From a virus: a stretch of 29,670 nt of DNA. Both the position numbers and the translations under genes were made by a program. The stretch is from the IMG/VR virus record IMGVR_UViG_3300018083_000098, positions 1 through 29,670 of that record. One strand, 5' to 3'. Every line of letters begins with the position of its first letter. The stretch's first letter is position 1. The notes beneath the pieces were generated by a model that made no database searches, was not told the DNA's origin, and worked only from the letters and a program-made list of their open reading frames with translations. This document shows, piece by piece, positions 4,718 to 29,670 of this stretch.

Positions 4718-5170
4718 TTATGCTATCGCATTTCTTCTAGTTGCTGAAAGAGTTTTTGATATTTTTCTTTTATGTTCTTCTGTTAGCTTTCTTCCTCTAT
4801 TGGAAAGACCTACCTTTCTTCTTTCTTCTATTGGTAGATTCTTTTTAACTTCGCTCATTCTCTGTTTAGCTTTATCTGAGTGTTTATATCCGAAAGAACC
4901 ATCACCGCCACTGGTCGAGTTATATTCTGGCCTTAAGATAGCTATATAGTTTTTTTCTAATCTCTTTAGTAGTTCATAATCAAATATATTTCGATGGATA
5001 ATTTCCCACTTAAAACTATCTCTACCATATTTTTTTATTGCTCTATAAAACTTTGAGTCTTCTCTTTGTAAACTATTTAGATGCTTTGCCTTTCTTGAGG
5101 CAAGACTTTTTAAGGTTAGTCCTATGTAAGATTTATTATTAACAACATTTGTGGCTCGATAAATAATCAT
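4718..5170 (-). CDS. GIY-YIG homing endonuclease with NUMOD3 repeats
   Basis: This 150-residue protein has a GIY-YIG core at residues 2-18 (MIIYRATNVVNNKSYIGLT), the conserved R26, K29 and H30 after SRKAKH, and the downstream E (LLKRLEKNYIAIL). The C-terminal half has two NUMOD3-type DNA-binding repeats (HSDKAKQRMSEVKKN; TEEHKRKISKTLSA). Such free-standing endonucleases cut sequences lacking themselves and spread between phages. It is inserted between the capsid gene and the connector operon and is bracketed by two intrinsic terminators. The ATG directly follows the upstream terminator's U-tract, and the only Shine-Dalgarno-like AGGGG lies in that stem. Confidence 0.9.
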   Translation of the reverse strand: MIIYRATNVVNNKSYIGLTLKSLASRKAKHLNSLQREDSKFYRAIKKYGRDSFKWEIIHRNIFDYELLKRLEKNYIAILRPEYNSTSGGDGSFGYKHSDKAKQRMSEVKKNLPIEERRKVGLSNRGRKLTEEHKRKISKTLSATRRNAIA

Positions 5171-7109: not shown

Positions 7110-7583
7110 ATTTATCTCCTTAAAGGTCAATGGTTTCATTTCTTTTACGAATGGTCTATTGGTTAATGCTACACCGAATAAAGTTGTTCCGTAACTTGTC
7201 CCGGTTTCATTATCGGTATACTCAAAAGCAAACTCCGCTGACAAATATCTATATTGCTTATCATTAACTGTAGTTTTACCAAGTTCATTAAATTCTATGC
7301 TTCCCCATAACTCGGTATCATCTACCAGATATAATCTTTTTATCCAGCCAAATGCCTTGCCGCCATTATTATGCCCTTCATCAAGGGCAATATCTGTCCT
7401 TCTGGCATAGCTATCAAAATTAGAAATCATTTCTCTTAAGTCATCTTGGTTGATAGTTATCTCACCAAAGGAATCATTAAATGAACCTGTCCGAAGTATT
7501 TGAACTTCACTAGGCAAATGAATCTGCGTATTATTCTGGTCATAAAATTTATGTGTCATTGGGACACTTCGGACATTCAGCAT
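6615..7583 (-). CDS. Head maturation protease with C-terminal scaffold (Mu gpI-like)
   Basis: From ATG 7583 this gives 322 residues; TTG 7589 and ATG 7559 are alternatives and none has a good ribosome site. The N-terminal about 150 residues resemble the Mu-like I protein protease: ITINQDDLREMISNFDSY, IALDEGHNNGGKAFGWIK (candidate catalytic region), YRYLSAEFAFEY, LTNRPFV. The C-terminal 160 residues are a charged coiled coil (KSKKLSDDLEVQIKKNIELV), typical of a scaffold. The protein would guide capsid assembly and then cleave the scaffold. A separate start within the gene makes the scaffold alone. Confidence 0.8.
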   Translation of the reverse strand: MLNVRSVPMTHKFYDQNNTQIHLPSEVQILRTGSFNDSFGEITINQDDLREMISNFDSYARRTDIALDEGHNNGGKAFGWIKRLYLVDDTELWGSIEFNELGKTTVNDKQYRYLSAEFAFEYTDNETGTSYGTTLFGVALTNRPFVKEMKPLTFKEINMPAPVKDTTDVTKILTDMDAMKVQMTEMSTKLTEQETKSKKLSDDLEVQIKKNIELVDKNKAIEKKKEFDEKLNAGLVCEAQRDAYMKDDMMAFISNIAKPNLQAQSTNFTDDGHEKVGDVQDEVISLAKAKVKEDAKLTLSEAIVHVLKEKPALSKKYNELFQ

Positions 7584-7617
7584 AATCAAAGATTATCAGC
7601 AAATAGATTAGTGTCAA

Positions 7618-8430
7618 TTAGAATTGTTTTTGTTGTTGGGCTTTTTCTGATAAGGAATCGAAGTCGGGCAATCCTTCAATCTCATCTTCTATTACTCTAG
7701 TCAAAGGGAGGTAGGTAGATTTGCAACCGAAGTGCAGAGGGCAAGTGTAAAATCCATACAAAGGGTCATCATAAGCAAATGTCGTACCATTTAACTCATT
7801 ACACAAATCAGTAACCGGGTCAGGATTGTAGAAAACAAATGCTTGAACCAATCCTCTATCGTTTGCCTCCTCGAACACATCATTCCTAGAATCGTTTACC
7901 AGTCCTGCCGATTGAACGAAGGCTCCCTTTCCTTTTTCAATCCCTTCAATAAAATCATCCATTGATGCATTAAGAGCGTCCTGTAGCATTTGTTTGGTTA
8001 GCATATAATTATTCTCAAGTGTTATATAAACACTCCCTTGCATATCTAGGACAATTGATTCGGTGAAGACTTGTGCCTGATGGATAATTCTTTTTTGTTG
8101 GTCGGGATTTAAATTAGCTAAAATTGCCGGGTCAAATTCAATCCTATCTGCAAAGGTAATGGTTACCCTTGTTTCAGATATTACTTCCTGATTTGATGAA
8201 TCAGTTATCTCTGCATGGGCGGCAATCATATCTGATTCAAATTGATTATATAAATCATCTGATGGAGAAATGTTACCTGCTGCTAAATATTTCTCATTCT
8301 CATTTAGGAAGTCCCAATTATTTAACACCTGATTATTTAGGTTCTTTAATATCAAATCCGAGTAGTAGGACATTACTGCTATGAGTAATTCACTTCCGGA
8401 ATCAATTATCTTTTCATATTGTTTAGCCAC
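7618..8430 (-). CDS. Minor head protein (Mu gpF / SPP1 gp7-like)
   Basis: This 270-residue protein has a helical N-terminus (LLIAVMSYYSDLILKNLNN) and a C-terminal head-morphogenesis domain: VNDSRNDVFEEANDRGLV, then DLCNELNGTTFAYDDP, then CPLHFGCKSTYLPL, with the family's D..C..L.G..F....P....P.H..C pattern. Such proteins bind the portal and a few copies may be ejected with DNA. The GTG start overlaps the endonuclease stop (GTGGCTAA) and has a poor ribosome site, so translation may depend on coupling. In the ancestral order it would follow the portal directly. Confidence 0.78.
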   Translation of the reverse strand: MAKQYEKIIDSGSELLIAVMSYYSDLILKNLNNQVLNNWDFLNENEKYLAAGNISPSDDLYNQFESDMIAAHAEITDSSNQEVISETRVTITFADRIEFDPAILANLNPDQQKRIIHQAQVFTESIVLDMQGSVYITLENNYMLTKQMLQDALNASMDDFIEGIEKGKGAFVQSAGLVNDSRNDVFEEANDRGLVQAFVFYNPDPVTDLCNELNGTTFAYDDPLYGFYTCPLHFGCKSTYLPLTRVIEDEIEGLPDFDSLSEKAQQQKQF

Positions 8431-8953
8431 GCTTTAGTTTCTTCATAGATTCTGAAATCTTTAATCTTGTTTGCTCACTAACAACGAAACCTTTTCTGGA
8501 ATTACTTTGTTTTAATTTGGACTCCTCAGTTCTTATTCTTCCAGTTAATCCCTTTGAAATCTTCTTACCTATCTCAGGTGGTCTTTTCTTACCTTTATAT
8601 TTATCACTAAATATCTTTTTGGTTCTCTCGGAAAAGGTATAACCAATCATTCCCTCCCCACCTTCTGATAAATTATAAGGAGGCTTTAATGCTGAAATCA
8701 TTTCTCTTTCAATTGTTTTAATATCTATCTCGTCATCGGATTGATAAAGGACATCCCACTCAAATGCATCTTGTCCGTATTTCTTTATCGCTTTGCTGAT
8801 TAATGATTTGCCAGTATTTCTTCTGGATATATGTTCATTCTTTCTTTTATTTAAGTCCCTAGATGAGATACCTAAGTAAAACTTTCCATTAATTTTATTT
8901 GTTGCTCTATACAGTATCAGATAAATTTCCTTTTGATTTAATACAAGCTGCAA
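8423..8953 (-). CDS. GIY-YIG homing endonuclease inserted between portal and head genes
   Basis: It shows the same family as the gene at 4718-5170: LILYRATNKINGKFYLGIS, then KRKNEHISR, IEREMISAL, and NUMOD3-like repeats (FSERTKKIFSDKYKGKK; EIGKKISKGLTG; SEQTRLKISESMKK). It overlaps the portal 3' end and the start of the next gene. The longest frame begins with a TTG at 8953. Alignment with the sister endonuclease puts the equivalent of its first Met at a CTG codon (8920), which has AAAAGG 8 nt upstream. No ATG precedes the catalytic motif, so a non-standard start is likely. Confidence 0.88.
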   Translation of the reverse strand: MQLVLNQKEIYLILYRATNKINGKFYLGISSRDLNKRKNEHISRRNTGKSLISKAIKKYGQDAFEWDVLYQSDDEIDIKTIEREMISALKPPYNLSEGGEGMIGYTFSERTKKIFSDKYKGKKRPPEIGKKISKGLTGRIRTEESKLKQSNSRKGFVVSEQTRLKISESMKKLKRG

Positions 8954-10460
8954 TAGCTCTATCTTTTTCCCACCCTTTGTTTATATGGTGAGCAATGCAT
9001 TCAGACACCTTGTCATCTACATCCAATCTTTTGTCCTTTTTAGGTTTGGGCCTATTGTCACCAGCATCTTTTTCAACACCTGCTTTTATCTTTTCACGGA
9101 ATGCTTGAATAGCTGAATCCATGAATGGCATATCTGGTTTTTTCTTATTAGGCTCTTCGCCTTTCTCTGGTAAAGCATATCTTTCTCTCAAGTATTTTTC
9201 AAGCTCCATATCAGGCACTACATTTCCTGAGTTAGTTAAGTTAGCAATTATTTGAGAGAAGTCTAAACCATAATCATCTGTCACTCCGCTGATGTACAAG
9301 CTAGGAAATTTTTTAGCGTCAGGAAAATTTAGCCTAATAAGTTCCGGGATAATAACTTTATTAAACTCGGACTCTATAATATCTATTATGTACTCCAAAG
9401 AATTTTTAAAGAACGAAGATAAGTCTGATGAAAGGGCTTGAGAGCCACCAGTTGTAATACCTAATTCTAAGAATGATGCAAGGAAAGCTTTGGCCATACG
9501 ACGGTCTTCATTATCTATTGCCACTTCTATTTTTTGCGGGTCATAGCTATTAAATTTAACATCAACGTCAAATCCTTCTGTCTTAACAATATAATTTGAC
9601 TGGTGAGTACAGAAATCACTTAATGCTTTTTCCAGGGCAACTCTGGATGTGGAGTTTTCCGCACCAAGTGGAATAGTCCCAATGGGAATCCCTATGGCAA
9701 ACTTCTCAATACCTATGGCATTTAACTTTTGATATGTTTGTTTTCTAAAATAACATCCATAGCAAGGTCTTAAAAGGGAAATCCCTTGATGGTTTTGTCC
9801 CTCTTTGTTTATGGTAAAGATAGATAAAACTTCTTTGGGAATTGGTCCGGTATGCTCCACATCCCCGTAGGCATATTGGGTAATGCCGACAAATTCCTTA
9901 TCTTTAAAATTCCAGGTCTCAATGGTCTTAGGGCTTATCCAGCGTAATTCTTTTAGACCTATATAAGATGGTAGGATGGTTCTTCCCTCCACCTCTACAG
10001 GCTCATTATAGACCTTATGGATTCTTTCCATGGCAGAGTGTCCGAAGATAACCATATCCAATATTTCATTTTTCATTTGGGATTGGGTTTGTTCCATATC
10101 ACGGAAAACTATTTCAAGGAATTTAGCTTGGTCTTCCGCCTCTGGAGTATCATCGTAAGGTCTAAACTCAAACAGCCCTGCCATGATTGGTAGCTTTACG
10201 GCTGACACCAACATCTGAACTTGGGAATCCTTTCTACGCATTTCATCAAATCTTTTTGCTGCCTCGGAATGTTTTAATTCATCAAGGTATTCTTCATCAT
10301 AATATCCTGCGTAGATTTGTGTCCCGGATGAACCTATTCCTAGGTTAATTTGCACCGGAGTTACTCCTGCCTTTGCTGCCTGATTAACTAGAGTTTCCAT
10401 AGCTATATCTTTAGGGTTATTTATTCCAACTGAACTCATCCCATCGTTTACTTCTGGCAT
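8907..10460 (-). CDS. Portal protein (Mu Gp29-like, DUF935)
   Basis: ATG 10460 is preferred because GAGG lies 8 nt upstream; an ATG at 10481 in the same frame has no site. About 517 residues. Portal family features: YDEEYLDELKHSEAAKRFDEM, DSQVQMLVSAVKLPIMAGLF, FGHSAMERIHKVY, GLKELRWISPKTIETW, then the clip/crown region SQALSSDLSSFFKNSLEYII. The portal forms the dodecameric DNA gate bound by TerL. The C-terminus has a small Cys-containing segment (VSECIAHHINKGWEKDRA). It follows TerL by 12-30 nt. Its 3' end is overlapped by the homing endonuclease. Confidence 0.88.
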   Translation of the reverse strand: MPEVNDGMSSVGINNPKDIAMETLVNQAAKAGVTPVQINLGIGSSGTQIYAGYYDEEYLDELKHSEAAKRFDEMRRKDSQVQMLVSAVKLPIMAGLFEFRPYDDTPEAEDQAKFLEIVFRDMEQTQSQMKNEILDMVIFGHSAMERIHKVYNEPVEVEGRTILPSYIGLKELRWISPKTIETWNFKDKEFVGITQYAYGDVEHTGPIPKEVLSIFTINKEGQNHQGISLLRPCYGCYFRKQTYQKLNAIGIEKFAIGIPIGTIPLGAENSTSRVALEKALSDFCTHQSNYIVKTEGFDVDVKFNSYDPQKIEVAIDNEDRRMAKAFLASFLELGITTGGSQALSSDLSSFFKNSLEYIIDIIESEFNKVIIPELIRLNFPDAKKFPSLYISGVTDDYGLDFSQIIANLTNSGNVVPDMELEKYLRERYALPEKGEEPNKKKPDMPFMDSAIQAFREKIKAGVEKDAGDNRPKPKKDKRLDVDDKVSECIAHHINKGWEKDRAIAACIKSKGNLSDTV

Positions 10461-10492
10461 ATTTATTTCCTCTAGTGCCATGTTAGTTTAGT

Positions 10493-11749
10493 TTAATAGT
10501 TATTTCCAGAATCAATTAGAATAGAACTGCTCCTGTCGATTGACTTATATGTTCCGTATGCCGGAGGAAATAATTTGCAGATGGCATAGCCCAAGGAATC
10601 TGAACTATGAGTCAGAGTTTTATCTTTGCTCTGGTCTAACTTCCCAGACCTAGACCATGTGGTTTTATTCAAGCATCTTATCAAATGTTCACACTTGGGA
10701 TTTATCAGGACTCTCCTATCTTGTAGCATTTTATTTACCGCCATTACCCGGTCAAAGACAAAAGGATTCTTGGAGGGAAGTAGAGTAAAACCTGAGTTGG
10801 CAAGTATCGCATGGTTCGATGGCCCTACTGTTGACCGATTGCCTCCAGTAGAATCAGCAATGATATTTATTTTCTTTCCATACTTACTCATTAATAAACT
10901 GGAGAACTTATATGTATCTGCGTTATCTGGAATAACTATCTCATCAAATACCATTATCTTGTTATCCACTATCTGAAAGATTACCGAGCACATAGGGCTT
11001 ACGTTAAAATCCAGGGCACAATAAATCTGAATCCCTTCCCTCATGGAAACATCAGCAACATTAAATTCTCTGGTAAAGGAAAAGTATGCTGCCTCCGCTG
11101 TGAGGTCTATAAACTCCGCCATACATTCCTGCTGGAATAGTTTATCAGGGTAAGAGTCTTTCAAGGATTGGATATATTCTTCCGGGAGAAGCTCGTTATC
11201 ATAGGTAGTCGCTGTGATAACAAAGCAATCACTAGGTGGGCGGCTGACAAAATACTCATGGACAAAATTAAATCCCTGCGGAGTAGTAGTACATCTAATC
11301 TGCGAAGGACTTTTCCTCACCCTACCAAGTGCCGTTTGAAATGCTTCAGGCTCGTAGAAAGCAAGTTCATCCATCAAAAGGAAATTTACATTTATTGCCC
11401 GAAATGCAGAATCATAATTTAGTGCCGAGAGTCCTGTGATGGTTGATTTATTTCTAAAGGTATAAGTTAGCTTGGGAGATTTTAGTCTTTGGTAATGTTT
11501 CCCCTCCTCCATACCCATGATAGATAAAACGGTTAGGATTTCTTTATCTAGTGCTTGGGTCAACTGCCCATAGTCCTTAGAGGACATGACCGAGGATGTG
11601 TTAGGATGCTCCAAGGCCTTTTTAATAAGCCATAAAGCTCCTATAAAGGTCTTTCCAAAGCCAAGACCTGCTAGGAGTAAACCGATTCTATTAGAGCGAT
11701 TAAGGAAGTCTAATTGCTTGGTGGATAGCTCTATGCACCTTTCAATCAT
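10493..11749 (-). CDS. terL: Terminase large subunit
   Basis: This 418-residue packaging motor has an ATPase domain with Walker A LAGLGFGKT (residues 26-34), Walker B FLLMDE (123-128) and a coupling segment RCTTTPQGF (152-160). The nuclease domain has acidic residues in ALDFN (D247), IIADSTGGNR (D299) and HSSDSLGY near the C-terminus. It cuts and translocates DNA into the prohead through the portal. The ATG overlaps the TerS stop (ATGA). Length is at the short end for TerL but all key motifs are present. Confidence 0.95.
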   Translation of the reverse strand: MIERCIELSTKQLDFLNRSNRIGLLLAGLGFGKTFIGALWLIKKALEHPNTSSVMSSKDYGQLTQALDKEILTVLSIMGMEEGKHYQRLKSPKLTYTFRNKSTITGLSALNYDSAFRAINVNFLLMDELAFYEPEAFQTALGRVRKSPSQIRCTTTPQGFNFVHEYFVSRPPSDCFVITATTYDNELLPEEYIQSLKDSYPDKLFQQECMAEFIDLTAEAAYFSFTREFNVADVSMREGIQIYCALDFNVSPMCSVIFQIVDNKIMVFDEIVIPDNADTYKFSSLLMSKYGKKINIIADSTGGNRSTVGPSNHAILANSGFTLLPSKNPFVFDRVMAVNKMLQDRRVLINPKCEHLIRCLNKTTWSRSGKLDQSKDKTLTHSSDSLGYAICKLFPPAYGTYKSIDRSSSILIDSGNNY

Positions 11750-12120
11750 TCCTTATTTCTTTCTTTGATTATGACATTGATAGCAGAATCAGCAGGGGAA
11801 GAAACTTCAATGCTATCTCTCCAACCATGACGGTTTGCCATGTTATATCTCCAAGCAGAGAAATTTCCTTTTCCTTTAACTGAAATAATAATTCCATTTG
11901 ACTCCCAAAATAATAAGTTAGCAGAGAGACCTTGCTTGTGAGCCTCGGAAAAGTCTGGATACTTTTTCTTCCATTCATACAACGTATCTTGATTGCATTT
12001 AATCCTTCCAGCAAAGGAGGCGAAGGAATATCCCTTGCCCATATGCTCAATCAGCATATCGCAGTATTCAGGATTATAGTCAGGTGGTCTGCCCATTTTA
12101 CTCATGATTAACTTTATCAT
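11746..12120 (-). CDS. terS: Terminase small subunit
   Basis: This protein has up to 124 residues and contains MGRPPDYNPEYCDMLIEHM followed by a helix-turn-helix (SFASFAGRIKCNQDTLYEWKK), typical of small terminase and resolvase-like DNA recognition domains, then a short oligomerisation region (ANRHGWRDS). It recognises the packaging site and regulates TerL. The start is uncertain: ATGs at 12120, 12105 and 12096 are all possible, the last two within or beside the kinase stop. Overlap with TerL is ATGA. Confidence 0.85.
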   Translation of the reverse strand: MIKLIMSKMGRPPDYNPEYCDMLIEHMGKGYSFASFAGRIKCNQDTLYEWKKKYPDFSEAHKQGLSANLLFWESNGIIISVKGKGNFSAWRYNMANRHGWRDSIEVSSPADSAINVIIKERNKE

Positions 12121-12625
12121 AGCTACAATCTTTTAGCTTTAGGAAGTTTTCCTCTATATTTGAAACGGAATCACTAAGCAGCACATAATGTGGGAAAGTG
12201 TCAATAATATTTTTAATCTTTGTTGCTCGACCTGTGACAAATGTTTTGTTTTGATTCCTGCTCTCCTGCCTTAGAGATAGAGTTTCATCGGTGATGGATA
12301 GATAAAATAATTTATAGGTAAATCCGAACTCTGAAAGTTTAGAAATCATTGTTGAGGTTATAAGTCTGTCTCCCTCTATATAGATATTTTTAATTTGTTT
12401 CTTGGCAAAAAGTAGAAACTTAAATAAATCCCTCGGTGATGCCATAGATAATCTATCTGTCCCAGAGAACTCCATATCCTCGCTATAGTCTCCTATAACC
12501 CAATAATCGCTCTCCTTATGGAACTTTATCAGACCAAACTTATAAACGGTCTTGGAGGTGATTAGCCGCTTATAAAGAGTCGTTTTACCGCTAGAGGGAA
12601 CTCCTATCAGGAGTATTAAATTCAT
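12098..12625 (-). CDS. 5-hydroxymethyl-dU DNA kinase (P-loop)
   Basis: This 175-residue P-loop kinase has Walker A GVPSSGKTT (8-16). Diagnostic of the phage 5-hmdU DNA kinase family are WVIGDY (42-47), FSGTDRLSM (53-61), IEGDRL (83-88) and the lid segment TGRATK (131-136). The family phosphorylates 5-hydroxymethyluracil in DNA, giving the activated base used by amino-acid:DNA transferases. It overlaps that transferase gene by 35 nt and TerS by 23 nt. Known of the family: experimentally shown in other phages; inferred here: same role. Compact length suggests no fused helical domain. Confidence 0.85.
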   Translation of the reverse strand: MNLILLIGVPSSGKTTLYKRLITSKTVYKFGLIKFHKESDYWVIGDYSEDMEFSGTDRLSMASPRDLFKFLLFAKKQIKNIYIEGDRLITSTMISKLSEFGFTYKLFYLSITDETLSLRQESRNQNKTFVTGRATKIKNIIDTFPHYVLLSDSVSNIEENFLKLKDCSYDKVNHE

Positions 12626-13448
12626 TTAGATATTTCCTTGAAAATGTTTCTCTGCGAAAATCCCACAGAGGTTTCCAGTTTACTCCGGAAATGCCGCTAA
12701 GTTTTAAAAGCTCAATCCTGTTTCTCTCAATGTAATATCCAACATATCTTTTTCCTTCAATCTTTTTCTTGTAGGCACATAGAGTCGTTTCAAGATTCCA
12801 GACATTGGTGGGAACATAATTTCTAACTGCCGAGAGCAGCTGCTTGAATTTTCCCTCAAGCCCAATCGCTTGGGCATCAGATATTGTTTCATTAAACTCA
12901 ATATTGAAAACATCACAAAGACCTTTTCTAACCGTAGAGGCATTTTTAACATCCAGCTTATCTGGATAAATATTTGTATTGGTAAGGACAGAGAGAAGTT
13001 CTAGGTAAATAAAGGATGAAAACCTCCCGAAGTTTTTAATGGACAGGGCAAAATCATTGAACTCCTGATAAGTTTTCAACCTGGAGAATGTGGAATGTTG
13101 GTCTAGGGAAATAAGATTCCGATATGATTGGAATGTTTCAACGAATTTATTTGCAGTTTTTATCCTTAGCCTATCGGTTTGAAATAATAGTTTGGATTTA
13201 TTTTCTTTCCACCACTTCTCCATTCGAGATACCGATGCTGTTTCAAAGTCAGGGAATTCATTATAAATATAATAGACAGTTGGTGCACAGTAACAAGTTC
13301 CAAAAAGAAATGCCAACCAATATCTTTGTTCGATGTTTAGCTCAAACCTGTCACAGATATATTTTAAACAGGGATTTTGTGGGTCAGTATCTTTTGCCTC
13401 CATCATATCAACATGGAAATTAATAAAATCAGATTTCATATATTTCAT
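12591..13448 (-). CDS. Amino-acid:DNA transferase-like protein (alpha-glutamyl/putrescinyl thymine pyrophosphorylase family)
   Basis: This 285-residue, mostly helical protein contains YWLAFLFGTCYCAPTVYYIY, NEFPDF, RMEKWWKENKSKLLFQTDR, FGRFSSFIYLELL, STVRKGLCDVF, LETTLCAYKKKIEGKRYVGYYIER and GVNWKPLWDFR. This pattern (W...FG..Y..PT....NEFPD; FGR......L; ET.LC...K......R..GYY) is what I know of the DNA-glycosylase-fold family that replaces the phosphate on 5-phosphomethyl-dU with an amino compound. Gene overlap with the 5-hmdU kinase supports the pathway. The amine it uses cannot be read. ATG 13448 or 13439 are both possible. Confidence 0.75.
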   Translation of the reverse strand: MKYMKSDFINFHVDMMEAKDTDPQNPCLKYICDRFELNIEQRYWLAFLFGTCYCAPTVYYIYNEFPDFETASVSRMEKWWKENKSKLLFQTDRLRIKTANKFVETFQSYRNLISLDQHSTFSRLKTYQEFNDFALSIKNFGRFSSFIYLELLSVLTNTNIYPDKLDVKNASTVRKGLCDVFNIEFNETISDAQAIGLEGKFKQLLSAVRNYVPTNVWNLETTLCAYKKKIEGKRYVGYYIERNRIELLKLSGISGVNWKPLWDFRRETFSRKYLNEFNTPDRSSL

Positions 13449-14010
13449 TACTCGCTATGAGGAGTCCATCAAGCCCTGACCTTTTCCCTATGTCAGAGGT
13501 GGAGTAAAATATATTGGAGTCATTTTCCTTGTGGAGATATAGGGGCCTAAAGTTATTTCTAAATGCAAATAGCTTTCCGTCCTTTAACCATACAGCAGCA
13601 ATAGTCTTACCTTTTGAAAAATCTTTGATGTCATCAATCTTACTCACCAATACCTCGGCATCATTTTCCGTGATAAGGGTAAATCCAAACTGACTCTCCA
13701 TATCCTCCTTGCTGTCTCCTGAGATAACTCCATTTAGAGCAAGAGATAGATTTCCTTTGTGGATAGGTTGAGCGTTGTCTAGGTCAACGACTCCTGAAGT
13801 CGAATACCTGTTGTGCCAAATAAATAAACTTGGATAGTCGCTAAAGAGAGAATTTATCGCATCATCAAAGTCCAAAAACTTCTTGGTGGTAAGTATTTTG
13901 TCATAATAGGAATACCCGAAGGAGTGGAGGCCTCTAACGGATGATTCCACCAATACCTTATACATAGTTTCCCGATTCATCTTTCCACTAAACCCAACGA
14001 TACCACACAT
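13429..14010 (-). CDS. Class II glutamine amidotransferase
   Basis: This 193-residue stand-alone Ntn-type glutaminase domain has the Cys2 nucleophile (MCGIVGFSG), RGLHSFGY (matching RGYDSAG of GlmS), WHNRYSTSG (HTRWATHG), NAQPIH, SLALNGVIS (VHNGIIEN) and TENDAEVL (SETDTE). It releases ammonia from glutamine; no synthase or sugar isomerase domain is attached, so the acceptor must be another protein or the DNA adduct itself. It lies between the GNAT and the transferase genes with overlaps on both sides, so it is part of the modification cassette. Confidence 0.85.
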   Translation of the reverse strand: MCGIVGFSGKMNRETMYKVLVESSVRGLHSFGYSYYDKILTTKKFLDFDDAINSLFSDYPSLFIWHNRYSTSGVVDLDNAQPIHKGNLSLALNGVISGDSKEDMESQFGFTLITENDAEVLVSKIDDIKDFSKGKTIAAVWLKDGKLFAFRNNFRPLYLHKENDSNIFYSTSDIGKRSGLDGLLIASNEIYEI

Positions 14011-14362
14011 TGAATATTTTTCCTTTTCTTGACCTTGCTGTTCCTATCTGAGTAAAACCAATCTTCTTATAGAATTTATTTGCCTCGCTATTTTCATCGG
14101 TCTTTAAAGTAATAGGAGAAGGAACTGCCTCTATCAGCTTTCTACCAATACCATTTTTCTTTTCCGCTACCGATATTTCACAGACTTCATACATCCCATC
14201 TTTTTTCCTGTAGTGAACAAATCCATCTTGACCTAGCTTTATCCAATAATGATTTTTCCTGCCAAGAGTTGCCCAGCTCCACATGAAATTACCTAGAATC
14301 TTTTCTCTGGAGAATATTTTCTTAATCCAGAGCTCATCCTCTGGTGTAACCTTTTCAATCAC
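13988..14362 (-). CDS. GNAT-family N-acetyltransferase
   Basis: This 124-residue protein has the GNAT acetyl-CoA motif A (CEISVAEKKNGIGRKLIEA, residues 61-79, with the Q/R-x-x-G-x-G/A-type KNGIGR) and motif B (SEANKFYKKIGF, 92-103). The N-terminal part has aromatic residues (FMWSWATLG; NHYWIKLG) likely forming the acceptor site. Start overlaps the dioxygenase stop and its end overlaps the amidotransferase start. By context it may acylate the amine installed on the modified base, or one of the pathway proteins. An unrelated protein-acetylation role cannot be excluded. Confidence 0.82.
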   Translation of the reverse strand: MIEKVTPEDELWIKKIFSREKILGNFMWSWATLGRKNHYWIKLGQDGFVHYRKKDGMYEVCEISVAEKKNGIGRKLIEAVPSPITLKTDENSEANKFYKKIGFTQIGTARSRKGKIFNVWYRWV

Positions 14363-15212
14363 GCTTTACTCTCGGAAGGTTCTTCAAGGTTTTCTTGTCA
14401 TAGTCCAATGCAATTTTAGTTTTGTTCTTATTGAACCTGTCCATTTCCTCTTTATAAGGTAAGCATTTTAGCATATTTCTAAGGGAATAAAAAACAATGG
14501 TATATCTGTAATAATGTTTTGATGTCGGAGTGAATTTTGTTACTCCATGAAGGTAAGTCTGGTTATCAAACATTACCAAGTCTCCATCTTCTAGTCCTTG
14601 AACCATTCCTAGTTCCGGAATATGAAGATTTCCTCCTTCGATATTTCTCTTATAGACAAGCATCGATGACCATACTCCGGGAAAATTACCAGCATCGGTA
14701 TGGTATCTCATTCTGGCATTTCTATTTACGATTCCGGAAGTGAATATTGAATCCGGCATAAGAAAATCACTTGGCAAATCCTTTTGAATCTCCAATTGCT
14801 TTTGATAAACAGCAAGGTCTATCTCTTTATATTTCTCTGAAACCTTGGTTGATAGCGGATAAAGGACTTCCTTTACTACAGGACGCTCCATCGTACACTT
14901 GGAGAGTCTGCAATAGTCTGCTCTCATGGGTACTCTGGGCAGCCAACCAAATGTTGCACTACCTGTTACTGGTATTCCTCCTGCTCGATGACCTCGGTTA
15001 TAAATCAAATCACCTCGAATCATCCGCTCGACTGTGTCGGTGTCCTTGTCAAAGTTTTTAATCATGTATCCAACAACTTTTCCATTGACTAGGAAACGGG
15101 CATCTTCATTTACGACTATTGCCTTGCTGGCATCTATCGTAGTTTTTCCCCTCAAATCCTTTTTAATTTTCTTGCTGTCAATATCCTTTACTGTAAAACT
15201 ATAATCCTTCAT
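14355..15212 (-). CDS. TET/JBP-type 2-oxoglutarate Fe(II) dioxygenase
   Basis: ATG 15212 (285 residues) is preferred over an upstream TTG at 15245 because GGTGGG lies just before it. The double-stranded beta-helix core has H171 and D173 (MRYHTDAGN), H222 (QTYLHGVT) and R236 (YYRYTIVFYS), the Fe- and 2-oxoglutarate-binding residues, with GGNLHIPEL and EDGDLVMFD between them, as in TET/JBP proteins. The family oxidises the methyl group of 5-methylcytosine or thymine in DNA. The neighbouring 5-hmdU kinase makes thymine the likely substrate; no cytosine-5 methylase is visible in this window. It overlaps the ParB-like gene by 14 nt. Confidence 0.85.
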   Translation of the reverse strand: MKDYSFTVKDIDSKKIKKDLRGKTTIDASKAIVVNEDARFLVNGKVVGYMIKNFDKDTDTVERMIRGDLIYNRGHRAGGIPVTGSATFGWLPRVPMRADYCRLSKCTMERPVVKEVLYPLSTKVSEKYKEIDLAVYQKQLEIQKDLPSDFLMPDSIFTSGIVNRNARMRYHTDAGNFPGVWSSMLVYKRNIEGGNLHIPELGMVQGLEDGDLVMFDNQTYLHGVTKFTPTSKHYYRYTIVFYSLRNMLKCLPYKEEMDRFNKNKTKIALDYDKKTLKNLPRVKRD

Positions 15213-15867
15213 ATCTTCCCACCAAAAAGACAAACAGTTTTGCAATCGTATCTATTTTTTCTTTCTCCATTATCTTCACACATCTCTCCATCGTTAGTCT
15301 AAGTTCCTCTCCTTCGAGGTTGATAAAGATTCTCCTGCTGTCATTGTTTTCATATTCCTCCCGGACATCTGGAGAGTGAGCAGGAAGTGATTCACGCTTT
15401 GTTTCACCGATGGAATCAATAATCGCTGGGTCAAAATATATTCCTAAGTCCTTTTGCAAATCCGGCATCAGCAAATCTTCATATAGACTCATATCTATAT
15501 CTTTTATTTCATCCACCAGGGCATAAAGCATATCGGTGTCAAATACTCCTCCCACCTGATGATTGTTGGCAGTTATATTTGCAGCCTTTTCCGTTTCTTC
15601 ATCCCAGTCAACAATTCTGACAGTAAACTCAAGCGGAGTTTCTCCATCATATAATTGTCCGTTTTTAATATTTAGATTTTTGTGGGTTTTCTTTAGAACA
15701 GAAATCCTTTGATGTCCTGTGACCAGATAGCCAGTTCTTTTGTTCCAAGTAATCCCAGAAATGTCACCAAACTTATCCAGAGACTTCTCCAAACCCTCCA
15801 AAGACTTTTCATTTATAATTCTTGGGTTGTAAGGTGCTGCCTTAATATCCTCTAATTTTATTTCCAA
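15199..15867 (-). CDS. ParB/Srx-like N-terminal domain protein at the head of the modification operon
   Basis: This 222-residue protein has a ParB-type domain (residues 1-110): LEDIKAAPYNPRIINEKSLE, then FGDISGITWN, GYLVTGHQRISVLKK (the GHQR motif) and TANNHQVGG. The remaining half has a helical segment (MLYALVDEIKDIDMSLYEDLL) and a C-terminal about 50-residue region. TTG start at 15867 is supported by GGAGGG with a 5-nt spacer. ParB-like domains recur in phage DNA-modification loci and are thought to bind or process DNA there. Being first in the leftward operon it is well placed to target the enzymes to DNA; this is inference. Confidence 0.8.
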   Translation of the reverse strand: MEIKLEDIKAAPYNPRIINEKSLEGLEKSLDKFGDISGITWNKRTGYLVTGHQRISVLKKTHKNLNIKNGQLYDGETPLEFTVRIVDWDEETEKAANITANNHQVGGVFDTDMLYALVDEIKDIDMSLYEDLLMPDLQKDLGIYFDPAIIDSIGETKRESLPAHSPDVREEYENNDSRRIFINLEGEELRLTMERCVKIMEKEKIDTIAKLFVFLVGRYEGL

Positions 15868-19520: not shown

Positions 19521-19868
19521 ATGCTGTATTTCGTACAATTTAAAACTAGAAACAATGACACGTATATTAAAGTAGGAATAACTGGACAGATAAAAGAAAG
19601 ATTCTATGCACTTCAAAGAGGGTTACCTTTCAAACTAGAATTGCTGCATCTTTTCGATGTTCCTAAATATCAAGAGATTGAGAGGAAAATAAAAAGATTT
19701 ATAAAATCAGATTTAATAGGAGAGTGGTTCCTTTTATCAGACGATAATGCTAATTCGTTCGAAAAAATATTTGAACTTCTAAGTGGGTACAGAGTCGATG
19801 ATGCTTTGGAAATAATAGGACATGATAATGAATCAATTTCTTCATTAATAGAGGAGGAGTTGCAATGA
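19521..19868 (+). CDS. T5orf172/MUG113-type GIY-YIG nuclease-fold protein
   Basis: This 115-residue protein starts MLYFVQFKTRNNDTYIKVGI, matching the YF(V/I)...YIKVGIT pattern of the T5orf172/MUG113 branch of the GIY-YIG fold, followed by RFYALQRGLPFKLELL, the E-x-I pair (YQEIERKIKRFI) and EWFLLS. The acidic C-terminal about 35 residues are extra. Role in phages unknown, perhaps DNA recombination or defence. AAGGAG lies 8 nt before the ATG; the stop overlaps the next ATG (ATGA). Confidence 0.75.
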   Translation: MLYFVQFKTRNNDTYIKVGITGQIKERFYALQRGLPFKLELLHLFDVPKYQEIERKIKRFIKSDLIGEWFLLSDDNANSFEKIFELLSGYRVDDALEIIGHDNESISSLIEEELQ

Positions 19869-28170: not shown

Positions 28171-28368
28171 TTAAAAATGTATTATTTGCCAATCATCTTC
28201 TGGTTCGCAGTTCATGTCTATTAGTTTAGCATCTGGGTCATTTATATCCTGTGCTAAATAAGTATTGCCATCTTCTTCCATAAATACATGGACAGTTACT
28301 GGTCGCCAGTTTTTACGGCGAACTTTATGTCCTTCAACTAATTTTTCAATGGCATCAAGTTTATTTAT
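28171..28368 (-). CDS. Tad2/DUF2829-like protein, no canonical start codon
   Basis: The frame closes with TAA at 28171 and reads KLDAIEKLVEGHKVRRKNWR, then VTVHVFMEEDGNTYLAQDI and EPEDDWQIIHF. This fits the Thoeris anti-defence 2-like domain (EA...L..GK.VRR..W .... D......DW.I). There is no ATG, GTG or TTG before it in frame; an ATA at 28368 lies 7 nt after GGAG and gives 65 residues, overlapping the fibre stop by 8 nt. Known of the family: Tad2 sequesters a cyclic signalling nucleotide of the Thoeris defence. The remote, shorter sequence leaves room for doubt. Confidence 0.6.
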   Translation of the reverse strand: MNKLDAIEKLVEGHKVRRKNWRPVTVHVFMEEDGNTYLAQDINDPDAKLIDMNCEPEDDWQIIHF

Positions 28369-29670
28369 TTGCTCTCTCCAATTTCCTCATTCTTCCAAGT
28401 AAATCAGCAATTTGTTTACTTAGCTTGCTGATAGTTTTTTTCTGGGATTCTACTTCTGCTGACATTAGTAGCACGTCATTACCCCACGATAAAACACCTG
28501 CTCCGTTAGTTTTTAACACTTGGCCATTACCGCCAAATCCCGGATTAGTGCTACTTATAATTGCAGTTCTTCCAGCATTAAATTCTGTAGTGGTTACCTT
28601 TCCTTGATATTCCCAAGTCGTACCATTTGAAATATAGGTAGCTACCCATCCTGTAGGCACAGACTGATTAATTCCTGGGTGATTAGTTCTATCTCCACCA
28701 ACAGCAGTTCCCCAAGTAGATTCAACATAGACATAAAATGCACTACCGTTTGCTCTAATGGCAGGAGTGTAAACACAGCATCCGTTACCACCAGCGAAGT
28801 TGGCATTAGCTTGGCGAATACCATTGTTGCCTGCCGGAAGTGCTGATGGGTTATTTCCTGCACCTGCCTGTCCACCATAATACCAAACAGGAGTGTTATG
28901 CATTCTAAATGATTCTTGTCCTAGTCTATTTAAATTACCGTTACCGATAATATCGACTCCGCCGGGGCCTGCGACTAAAGTGTCAGCAACATTTACAGTT
29001 CCAGACTCGTTAACCCAAAATTTATTTGTAAGAGTTATTATTCCGCCAGCAGTTGGATTAGGGTCTGTCGTTAAAATTAAATCAGTAGCAGTTTTTTGCC
29101 ATCTGAAGGCAGAACTTGTATTAGAGCCTCTTATATTATTACCACCAGCACCAGTCCCATCAGGGCCATAATAACAATCCCAGCAATCCCAGATATTATC
29201 ATGTGTCCAATTTAAAAAATGTCTCTGCGGATAAACGTCTGAATCAGTATTCCATGATTGATGAGGCCCACCAGCATTTCCATTAGGCCCTGTTAAAGTT
29301 ATTCTTGCAACACCAGTATTAGCTGCTGCGGCAGCTGCTTGAACAGTTCCAAAAATAGCATCTCCATTTACATGAAGATAAGTTTGCGGAGTATTGGTAT
29401 TTATCCCTAGCCTTCCTCTAGCGGTTAATCTCATTACTTCTTTAGTGTTCCAAAGAGAATTTCCCCAAGTTGTCCATAATATATCAGCGTTGTTTGCCAT
29501 AGCAGGCTTAGTGGTAAGGTGTGATGATTCAACAGCTTTAATTTCTACTTTCATTCCTGCAAATGCATTGGCAAAAGAATTTCCACTTACGTGTCCGATA
29601 GCTCTTGTGCCAACTTCAGCGACATTATGTTGGGAATTATTTGCATGAAAGGAAGTTATAATATTCCCAT
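28361..29670 (-). CDS. Tail fibre / receptor-binding protein (5' end beyond window)
   Basis: The frame is open from the right edge to TAA at 28361, about 436 codons; an internal ATG at 29554 is not needed as a start. It contains repeats of the trimeric appendage type (RGRLGINTNTPQTYLHVNGDA), Gly/Asn-rich beta segments (GGAGAGNNPSALPAGNNGIR-like stretches) and a C-terminal coiled coil (AEVESQKKTISKLSKQIADL then LGRMRKLERANK). Typical for a distal fibre that recognises the host. No S74 peptidase signature is seen. The small anti-defence-like gene overlaps its stop. Confidence 0.75.
   Translation of the reverse strand, partial: GNIITSFHANNSQHNVAEVGTRAIGHVSGNSFANAFAGMKVEIKAVESSHLTTKPAMANNADILWTTWGNSLWNTKEVMRLTARGRLGINTNTPQTYLHVNGDAIFGTVQAAAAAANTGVARITLTGPNGNAGGPHQSWNTDSDVYPQRHFLNWTHDNIWDCWDCYYGPDGTGAGGNNIRGSNTSSAFRWQKTATDLILTTDPNPTAGGIITLTNKFWVNESGTVNVADTLVAGPGGVDIIGNGNLNRLGQESFRMHNTPVWYYGGQAGAGNNPSALPAGNNGIRQANANFAGGNGCCVYTPAIRANGSAFYVYVESTWGTAVGGDRTNHPGINQSVPTGWVATYISNGTTWEYQGKVTTTEFNAGRTAIISSTNPGFGGNGQVLKTNGAGVLSWGNDVLLMSAEVESQKKTISKLSKQIADLLGRMRKLERANK

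Follow-up and report, generated by a model that had tools for sequence, protein, structure and literature searches.

How a phage might decorate the thymines of its genome without touching the nucleotide pool is the question raised by a six-gene cassette in the IMG/VR virus record IMGVR_UViG_3300018083_000098. The whole stretch analysed, referred to here as the window, is a linear record of 29,670 bases that may be incomplete. The cassette lies on the minus strand and is transcribed from 15867 to 12098 in the order ParB-like protein, TET/JBP-family dioxygenase, GNAT acyltransferase, glutamine amidotransferase (GATase), amino acid:DNA transferase (ADDT, also written AADT) and P-loop kinase, followed by the small and large terminase genes. 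An earlier annotation of the window (the original prediction) had described six leftward genes with intact motifs directly upstream of the terminase and read them as a DNA hypermodification cassette. All six minus-strand open reading frames were recovered in their places, both terminase genes come straight after the kinase, and the protein families and fold described below support the cassette reading. We consider it reasonably probable that these genes encode a post-replicative thymine hypermodification pathway, in which the dioxygenase, the kinase, the ADDT with the GATase, and the GNAT would act in turn.

The first gene (15199..15867) has a TTG start, which on inspection of the start region was found to be preceded by a GGAGGG ribosome-binding site. 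Its product has the ParB/sulfiredoxin fold and an intact GHQR motif (as TGHQR), matching PHROG ParB-like families at E-values of 2.9e-32 to 2.6e-24 and also phrog_498, the N-terminal region of DNA methyltransferases from phages (4.6e-22). It is likely a DNA-loading or targeting partner. The second gene (14355..15245) encodes a 2-oxoglutarate (2OG)-Fe(II) dioxygenase that matches the Pfam family Tet_JBP (PF12851) at 47.1 bits, above the curated cut-off of 34.9 (E 2e-12). Its motif reads HTD...LHG...R, and the residues of the Fe/2OG site (H182, D184, H233, R247) are unchanged in 36 relatives, all of which also match Tet_JBP. The AlphaFold2 model (predicted local distance difference test, pLDDT, 87.5) had NgTET1, CcTet, TET2 and CMD1 as its top Foldseek matches (E 1.6e-12 and weaker), so that family match, HxD...H iron site, 2OG-binding arginine and TET fold all place the protein in the TET/JBP family. 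The gene probably starts at ATG 15212 and not at TTG 15245, because a relative (locus L003) aligns from that methionine, and its overlap with the ParB-like gene would therefore be 14 bases.

The GNAT N-acyltransferase (13988..14362) carries an NGIGRK motif, matches PF13508/PF13673 (E 6e-6) and is predicted to acylate the installed amine. The next gene (13429..14010) encodes a stand-alone class-II GATase of the PurF/GlmS type, an N-terminal nucleophile (Ntn) enzyme that begins with MCGI and keeps the C2 nucleophile, the glutamine-binding R68, the N93-G94 oxyanion hole and D117. It matches GATase_6 (PF13522, 1.1e-6), purF (TIGR01134, 8.7e-9) and PurF/GlmS entries in the PDB (to about 4e-10), and is predicted to be the ammonia donor. 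The ADDT (12591..13448; 285 amino acids) matches PF18724 at 61.2 bits, with a cut-off of 26.2 (E 1.6e-16). A structure-based comparison of this protein, which the original prediction had proposed as a check, was run, and Pfam, PDB sequence search and fold agreed on a DNA-modifying family. The top Foldseek match of its model (pLDDT 93.6) was 8z2m, the 5-phosphomethyl-deoxyuridine (5-PmdU) glycinyltransferase gp46 of phage PaMx11 (E 4.5e-4, probability 1.00, template modelling score about 0.6). This was the sole convincing PDB fold for the model, which thus shares both a Pfam family and the fold of a solved 5-PmdU transferase.

The last gene (12098..12625) encodes a P-loop kinase with intact Walker A (GVPSSGKT), GTDRLSM and EGDRL motifs, assigned by family comparison to the Ploopntkinase3 group. 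The window protein itself is weak in Pfam (22.4 bits, under the cut-off of 27), and the family is matched by 22 of 44 relatives (best 2.4e-20). In a profile comparison, it matched the kinase of Gordonia phage CloverMinnie with a probability of 98.8 (E 1e-16). Searches against the HMUDK models (PF18748, HMUDK_HMUD1; PF18723, HMUDK_hel) gave no match, and only general P-loop models and Ploopntkinase3 were hit. The protein is predicted to phosphorylate 5-hydroxymethyl pyrimidines in DNA and may still work like a kinase for 5-hydroxymethyl-deoxyuridine (5-hmdU).

PaMx11 makes 5-aminomethyl-deoxyuridine (5-NmdU) with the products of gp46-gp51 (PDB 8z2m/8z2n), namely an ADDT, a flavin adenine dinucleotide (FAD) oxidoreductase, an acetyltransferase, a P-loop kinase, an HMUDK helical-domain protein and a ThyA-like enzyme. 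In both phages ADDT, GNAT and P-loop kinase are clustered, the ADDTs have the same fold, and a two-sequence comparison of the window GNAT with gp48 gave 27% identity (E 3e-8). However, PaMx11 has its own ThyA-like hydroxymethylase, HMUDK helical-domain protein and FAD oxidoreductase and neither TET nor GATase, whereas in the window both TET and GATase are present and a ThyA-like domain (PF00303) is missing. Because of this gene-for-gene match, including the GNAT, the window cassette resembles the PaMx11 set after two swaps, in which TET has taken the place of the ThyA-like enzyme and a GATase that of the FAD enzyme. The order previously proposed for the window, from thymine through 5-hydroxymethyluracil (5-hmU) and 5-phospho-hmU to an aminated base, likewise agrees with the gene content of the PaMx11 cassette.

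The first swap was examined by gene content. Phages M6, ViI and phiW-14 build amine-decorated thymines on 5-hmdU with a kinase and a transferase (PMC6449724), as would the window, but they make 5-hmdU at the nucleotide level with a ThyA-like dUMP hydroxymethylase and have no TET or GATase. PF00303, by which genomes of the M6/ViI/PaMx11 type are recognised, was absent from the window record, which is possibly incomplete, and from all 47 of the longest cassette records, many of them fragments (about 1.66 Mb, including the window and a contig of 305,782 bases). It was present in all eight ADDT phages in which TET was not found, that is, the characterised PaMx11, M6, Vi01 and phiW-14 as well as Maynard, Vibrio 144E46.1, phiA8-29 and LysYB2. 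In the complete TET- and ADDT-containing genomes of CloverMinnie, Mycobacterium phage JAMaL and Microbacterium phage MO526, neither PF00303 nor a C5-methyltransferase was found. The simplest reading of these gene contents has the dioxygenase converting thymine in DNA to 5-hmdU; the argument is strong but not conclusive, since the contigs are fragments. It fits the earlier proposal that a dioxygenase acting on finished DNA replaces the nucleotide-level route to 5-hmU. A similar first step is known from kinetoplastids, where the TET/JBP-family enzymes JBP1 and JBP2 hydroxylate thymine in DNA at the start of the base J pathway; there, glucosylation follows and not phosphorylation and amination.

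The second swap was traced among related loci. An FAD enzyme related to PaMx11 gp47 occurs in three cassette loci only (L118, L122, L125; 1.1e-13 for L122). GATase is absent from the first, and the other two have a GATase remnant without the NG, Asp and RGxH motifs, which are kept in every other GATase covering these positions. On the ADDT tree, the GATase-linked proteins group together (2 label changes, compared with 13.4 in shuffles), and the FAD-linked ones group with those of MO526 and CloverMinnie. These patterns lead us to infer that the GATase and FAD routes are alternative ways to an aminomethyl group. In PaMx11, glycine is added and then trimmed with the FAD enzyme to give the aminomethyl group. 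The linkage to the GATase suggests that ammonia is the ADDT donor in the window, by a logic like that of PurF, where pyrophosphate is displaced by ammonia from a GATase.

We therefore propose the following pathway, as a working model built from protein families, fold and gene content. The ParB-like protein would help to place the enzymes on phage DNA. The dioxygenase, whose family and gene-content pattern are established and whose substrate is predicted, would hydroxylate thymine at its 5-methyl group in finished DNA, yielding 5-hydroxymethyl-deoxyuridine, and the kinase, judging from its family context, would phosphorylate the hydroxymethyl group. The ADDT would then displace the phosphate with an amine; with ammonia derived from glutamine by the co-inherited class-II GATase, this may give 5-aminomethyl-deoxyuridine in one step. 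The GNAT, or an amidoligase in some loci, would act on the amine, in the case of the GNAT by N-acylation. The product may protect the genome from host nucleases, and the operon stands just before the terminase; only this gene order suggests that the cassette is run just before packaging. A more far-reaching version is that a widespread phage lineage makes 5-aminomethyl-deoxyuridine and its N-acyl form wholly on finished DNA, with TET acting on plain thymine and an Ntn amidotransferase supplying ammonia, thereby reaching the PaMx11 product with different enzymes. We put this forward tentatively, as plausible but short of probable.

Several observations weigh against this pathway. By sequence, the ADDT is only marginally similar to PaMx11 gp46 outside the shared fold. 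The kinase aligns to PaMx11 gp49 over the P-loop only, and because of this and the missing direct HMUDK match its role is counted as inferred. Caulobacter phage Cr30 carries TET and ADDT together with a strong PF00303 match, although its ThyA is probably canonical. The evidence for the FAD/GATase switch comes from three related loci and the cultured phage MO526, and a direct search between the FAD enzymes of MO526 and L122 gave no match. Most contigs are fragments, so that missing genes may lie off-contig. Two further points concern the substrates of the dioxygenase and the GATase, and each belongs to an alternative explanation.

The first alternative is that the same pathway runs on cytosine, with TET oxidising 5-methylcytosine (5mC) to 5-hydroxymethylcytosine, which is then phosphorylated and aminated; the 5mC would come from a methyltransferase of the host or one encoded off-contig. 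All four of the top structural matches of the dioxygenase are 5mC dioxygenases. Melnitz phages carry TET, this kinase and an HhaI-like C5-methyltransferase with no recognised ADDT, a gene pairing by which some relatives may act on 5mC. However, a C5-methyltransferase would be expected if TET acted on 5mC, and one was detected in only two of the 47 cassette records, both as weak, partial matches, while the complete genomes of CloverMinnie, JAMaL and MO526 gave no match at all. Furthermore, the enzyme that the ADDT matches in fold takes its name from 5-phosphomethyl-deoxyuridine. We therefore regard the cytosine pathway as unlikely. The residue at H+5 after HxD (Asn or Asp) was considered as a discriminator between thymine and 5mC and dropped, as both residues occur and neither is diagnostic.

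The second alternative accepts thymine but changes the donor. The ADDT would load a free amino acid and the GATase would amidate its carboxylate, giving an amino-acid-amide thymine that the GNAT or an amidoligase tailors further. Published ADDT donors are indeed amino acids (PaMx11, M6, ViI), and the GATase could amidate a carboxylate, especially in the nine loci in which an amidoligase accompanies it. Unrelated clusters in phage tf also bring a GATase together with an amidoligase and an ATP-grasp protein. However, in 98 of the 107 GATase loci neither an amidoligase nor any other obvious enzyme for activating a carboxylate is present, and FAD enzyme and GATase alternate at the position that makes the amine in PaMx11. 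An amino-acid-amide product is thus improbable in our view. It is far less probable still that the cassette has a target other than genomic bases, such as RNA, a cofactor or a surface metabolite, or that it serves counter-defence as an island of genes that are only co-transcribed: the GNAT and GATase families are generic and PADLOC gave one weak match each for kinase and ADDT, but the TET-ADDT-kinase synteny conserved in over 100 loci and in cultured actinophages, the DNA-base transferase as the only convincing PDB fold of the ADDT, and the ParB-like domain that also heads phage DNA methyltransferases speak against it. A reading of the cassette as a defence system was likewise rejected, the PADLOC matches being weak.

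The distribution of the cassette was surveyed in environmental viral contigs. A single-sequence TET query gave no match, and alignment queries were needed; alignments of ADDT and kinase returned 139 and 477 relatives, respectively, and the best 80 of each were retained. All six genes occur together in 38 of the 173 loci of a census, and TET-ADDT-kinase synteny is kept in more than 100 contigs, although many loci are near-copies (56 ADDT representatives at 80% identity, isolates included). Requiring at least 3.5 kb of upstream and 2 kb of downstream sequence leaves 52 ADDT loci, of which 50 contain TET and 39 the ParB-like gene; of the two without TET, L151 lies on a truncated contig and L004 is a real exception. 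In the 119 loci with TET, ADDT and kinase, we found an intact GATase in 107, the window-type GNAT in 44, a second GNAT family (Pfam Acetyltransf_1) in 32 and an amidoligase in nine. In 89 of 121 loci, a large terminase gene follows the cassette at a distance of no more than 2.5 kb, with best scores against three different terminase seeds. A weak scan of cellular genome contigs, with two peptide patterns only, found no ADDT relatives.

Some loci depart from the common layout. L040, L043, L046 and about 12 similar loci lack the GTDRLSM kinase and have a different P-loop kinase (MKCYYLVGYHGCGKTTQ) between ParB and GATase, likely a non-orthologous replacement. L131, L133 and L099 lack the GATase and carry, between TET and ADDT, a protein of 245 amino acids that contains an EYFAGVG motif and matches no Pfam family significantly, possibly an S-adenosylmethionine-dependent enzyme yielding another product. 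L002 and L004 combine ADDT, GATase, amidoligase, a low-molecular-weight-phosphatase-like protein and kinase (the last two fused in L002); TET is not found nearby, and their records lack PF00303. TET, ADDT and kinase also occur on a jumbo-sized contig (L126, IMGVR_UViG_3300033498_000048, 305,782 bases; locus 7418-10540) whose record contains no PF00303 and no C5-methyltransferase; jumbo phages were said in a 2021 survey to lack TET/JBP enzymes (PMC7824862). The cassette kinase model further matches proteins labelled 'terminase small subunit' (L177 2834-3460, JAMaL gp4; L176 17725-18270, Cr30 gp114; phrog_800), a label that is probably an error arising from their position beside the large terminase.

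The genes downstream of the cassette, conserved neighbours outside the chemistry, encode the small (11746..12120, minus strand; phrog_309, 2.5e-15) and large (10493..11749, minus strand; PF03237, 1e-19) terminase subunits. Elsewhere in the window, two GIY-YIG/NUMOD3 homing-type endonuclease genes (8423-8953 and 4718-5170) lie within a Mu-like head module, a T5orf172/MUG113 gene (19521-19868) lies in the early region, and an open frame of 435 amino acids without Pfam match (28361-29668) leaves the right end. Scanning the window against Rfam and for tRNA genes gave no match.

The original prediction held the combination of genes to be undescribed, which proved true only in part. A putative five-gene thymidine hypermodification system has been published for Rhodococcus phage Tonitrus, with ParB-like, tet-like, aGPT-Pplase2 and 5-hmU DNA kinase genes among its first five; that description, our only source on the phage, mentions no GATase or GNAT in its account of the system (PMC11955845). 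In CloverMinnie, JAMaL and MO526, TET, ADDT and kinase also adjoin the terminase, and the ParB-like gene comes first in CloverMinnie and JAMaL. However, none of the three has a match to the window GATase family, and MO526 has an FAD oxidoreductase instead. The GATase form was found in no annotated phage examined. A check of 18 annotated phage genomes gave no member of this GATase family, and the phage GATases recovered by tblastn were all others, at most about 33% identical; the one neighbourhood inspected among them was the amidoligase/ATP-grasp cluster of phage tf. In the literature searched, we found no description of the GATase-containing cassette, of its association with some of the ADDTs, of the exchange with the FAD enzyme or of how abundant it is in environmental phages. 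TET-derived hydroxymethyl pyrimidines were reportedly predicted by Iyer et al. in 2013 as starting points for phage hypermodification.

If the more far-reaching version is true, the cassette would be a prokaryotic-virus counterpart of the opening step of base J synthesis, combined with an amidotransferase acting on a DNA base. The proposed pathway would bear on the question of which substrates phage TET/JBP enzymes use, and would offer candidate enzymes for the amination of thymine in ordinary DNA, with uses in labelling and in making restriction-proof DNA. It would also provide a concrete route for phage thymine hypermodification that leaves nucleotide metabolism aside, and would reveal a modular build of the known pathway, two of its steps having been swapped independently.

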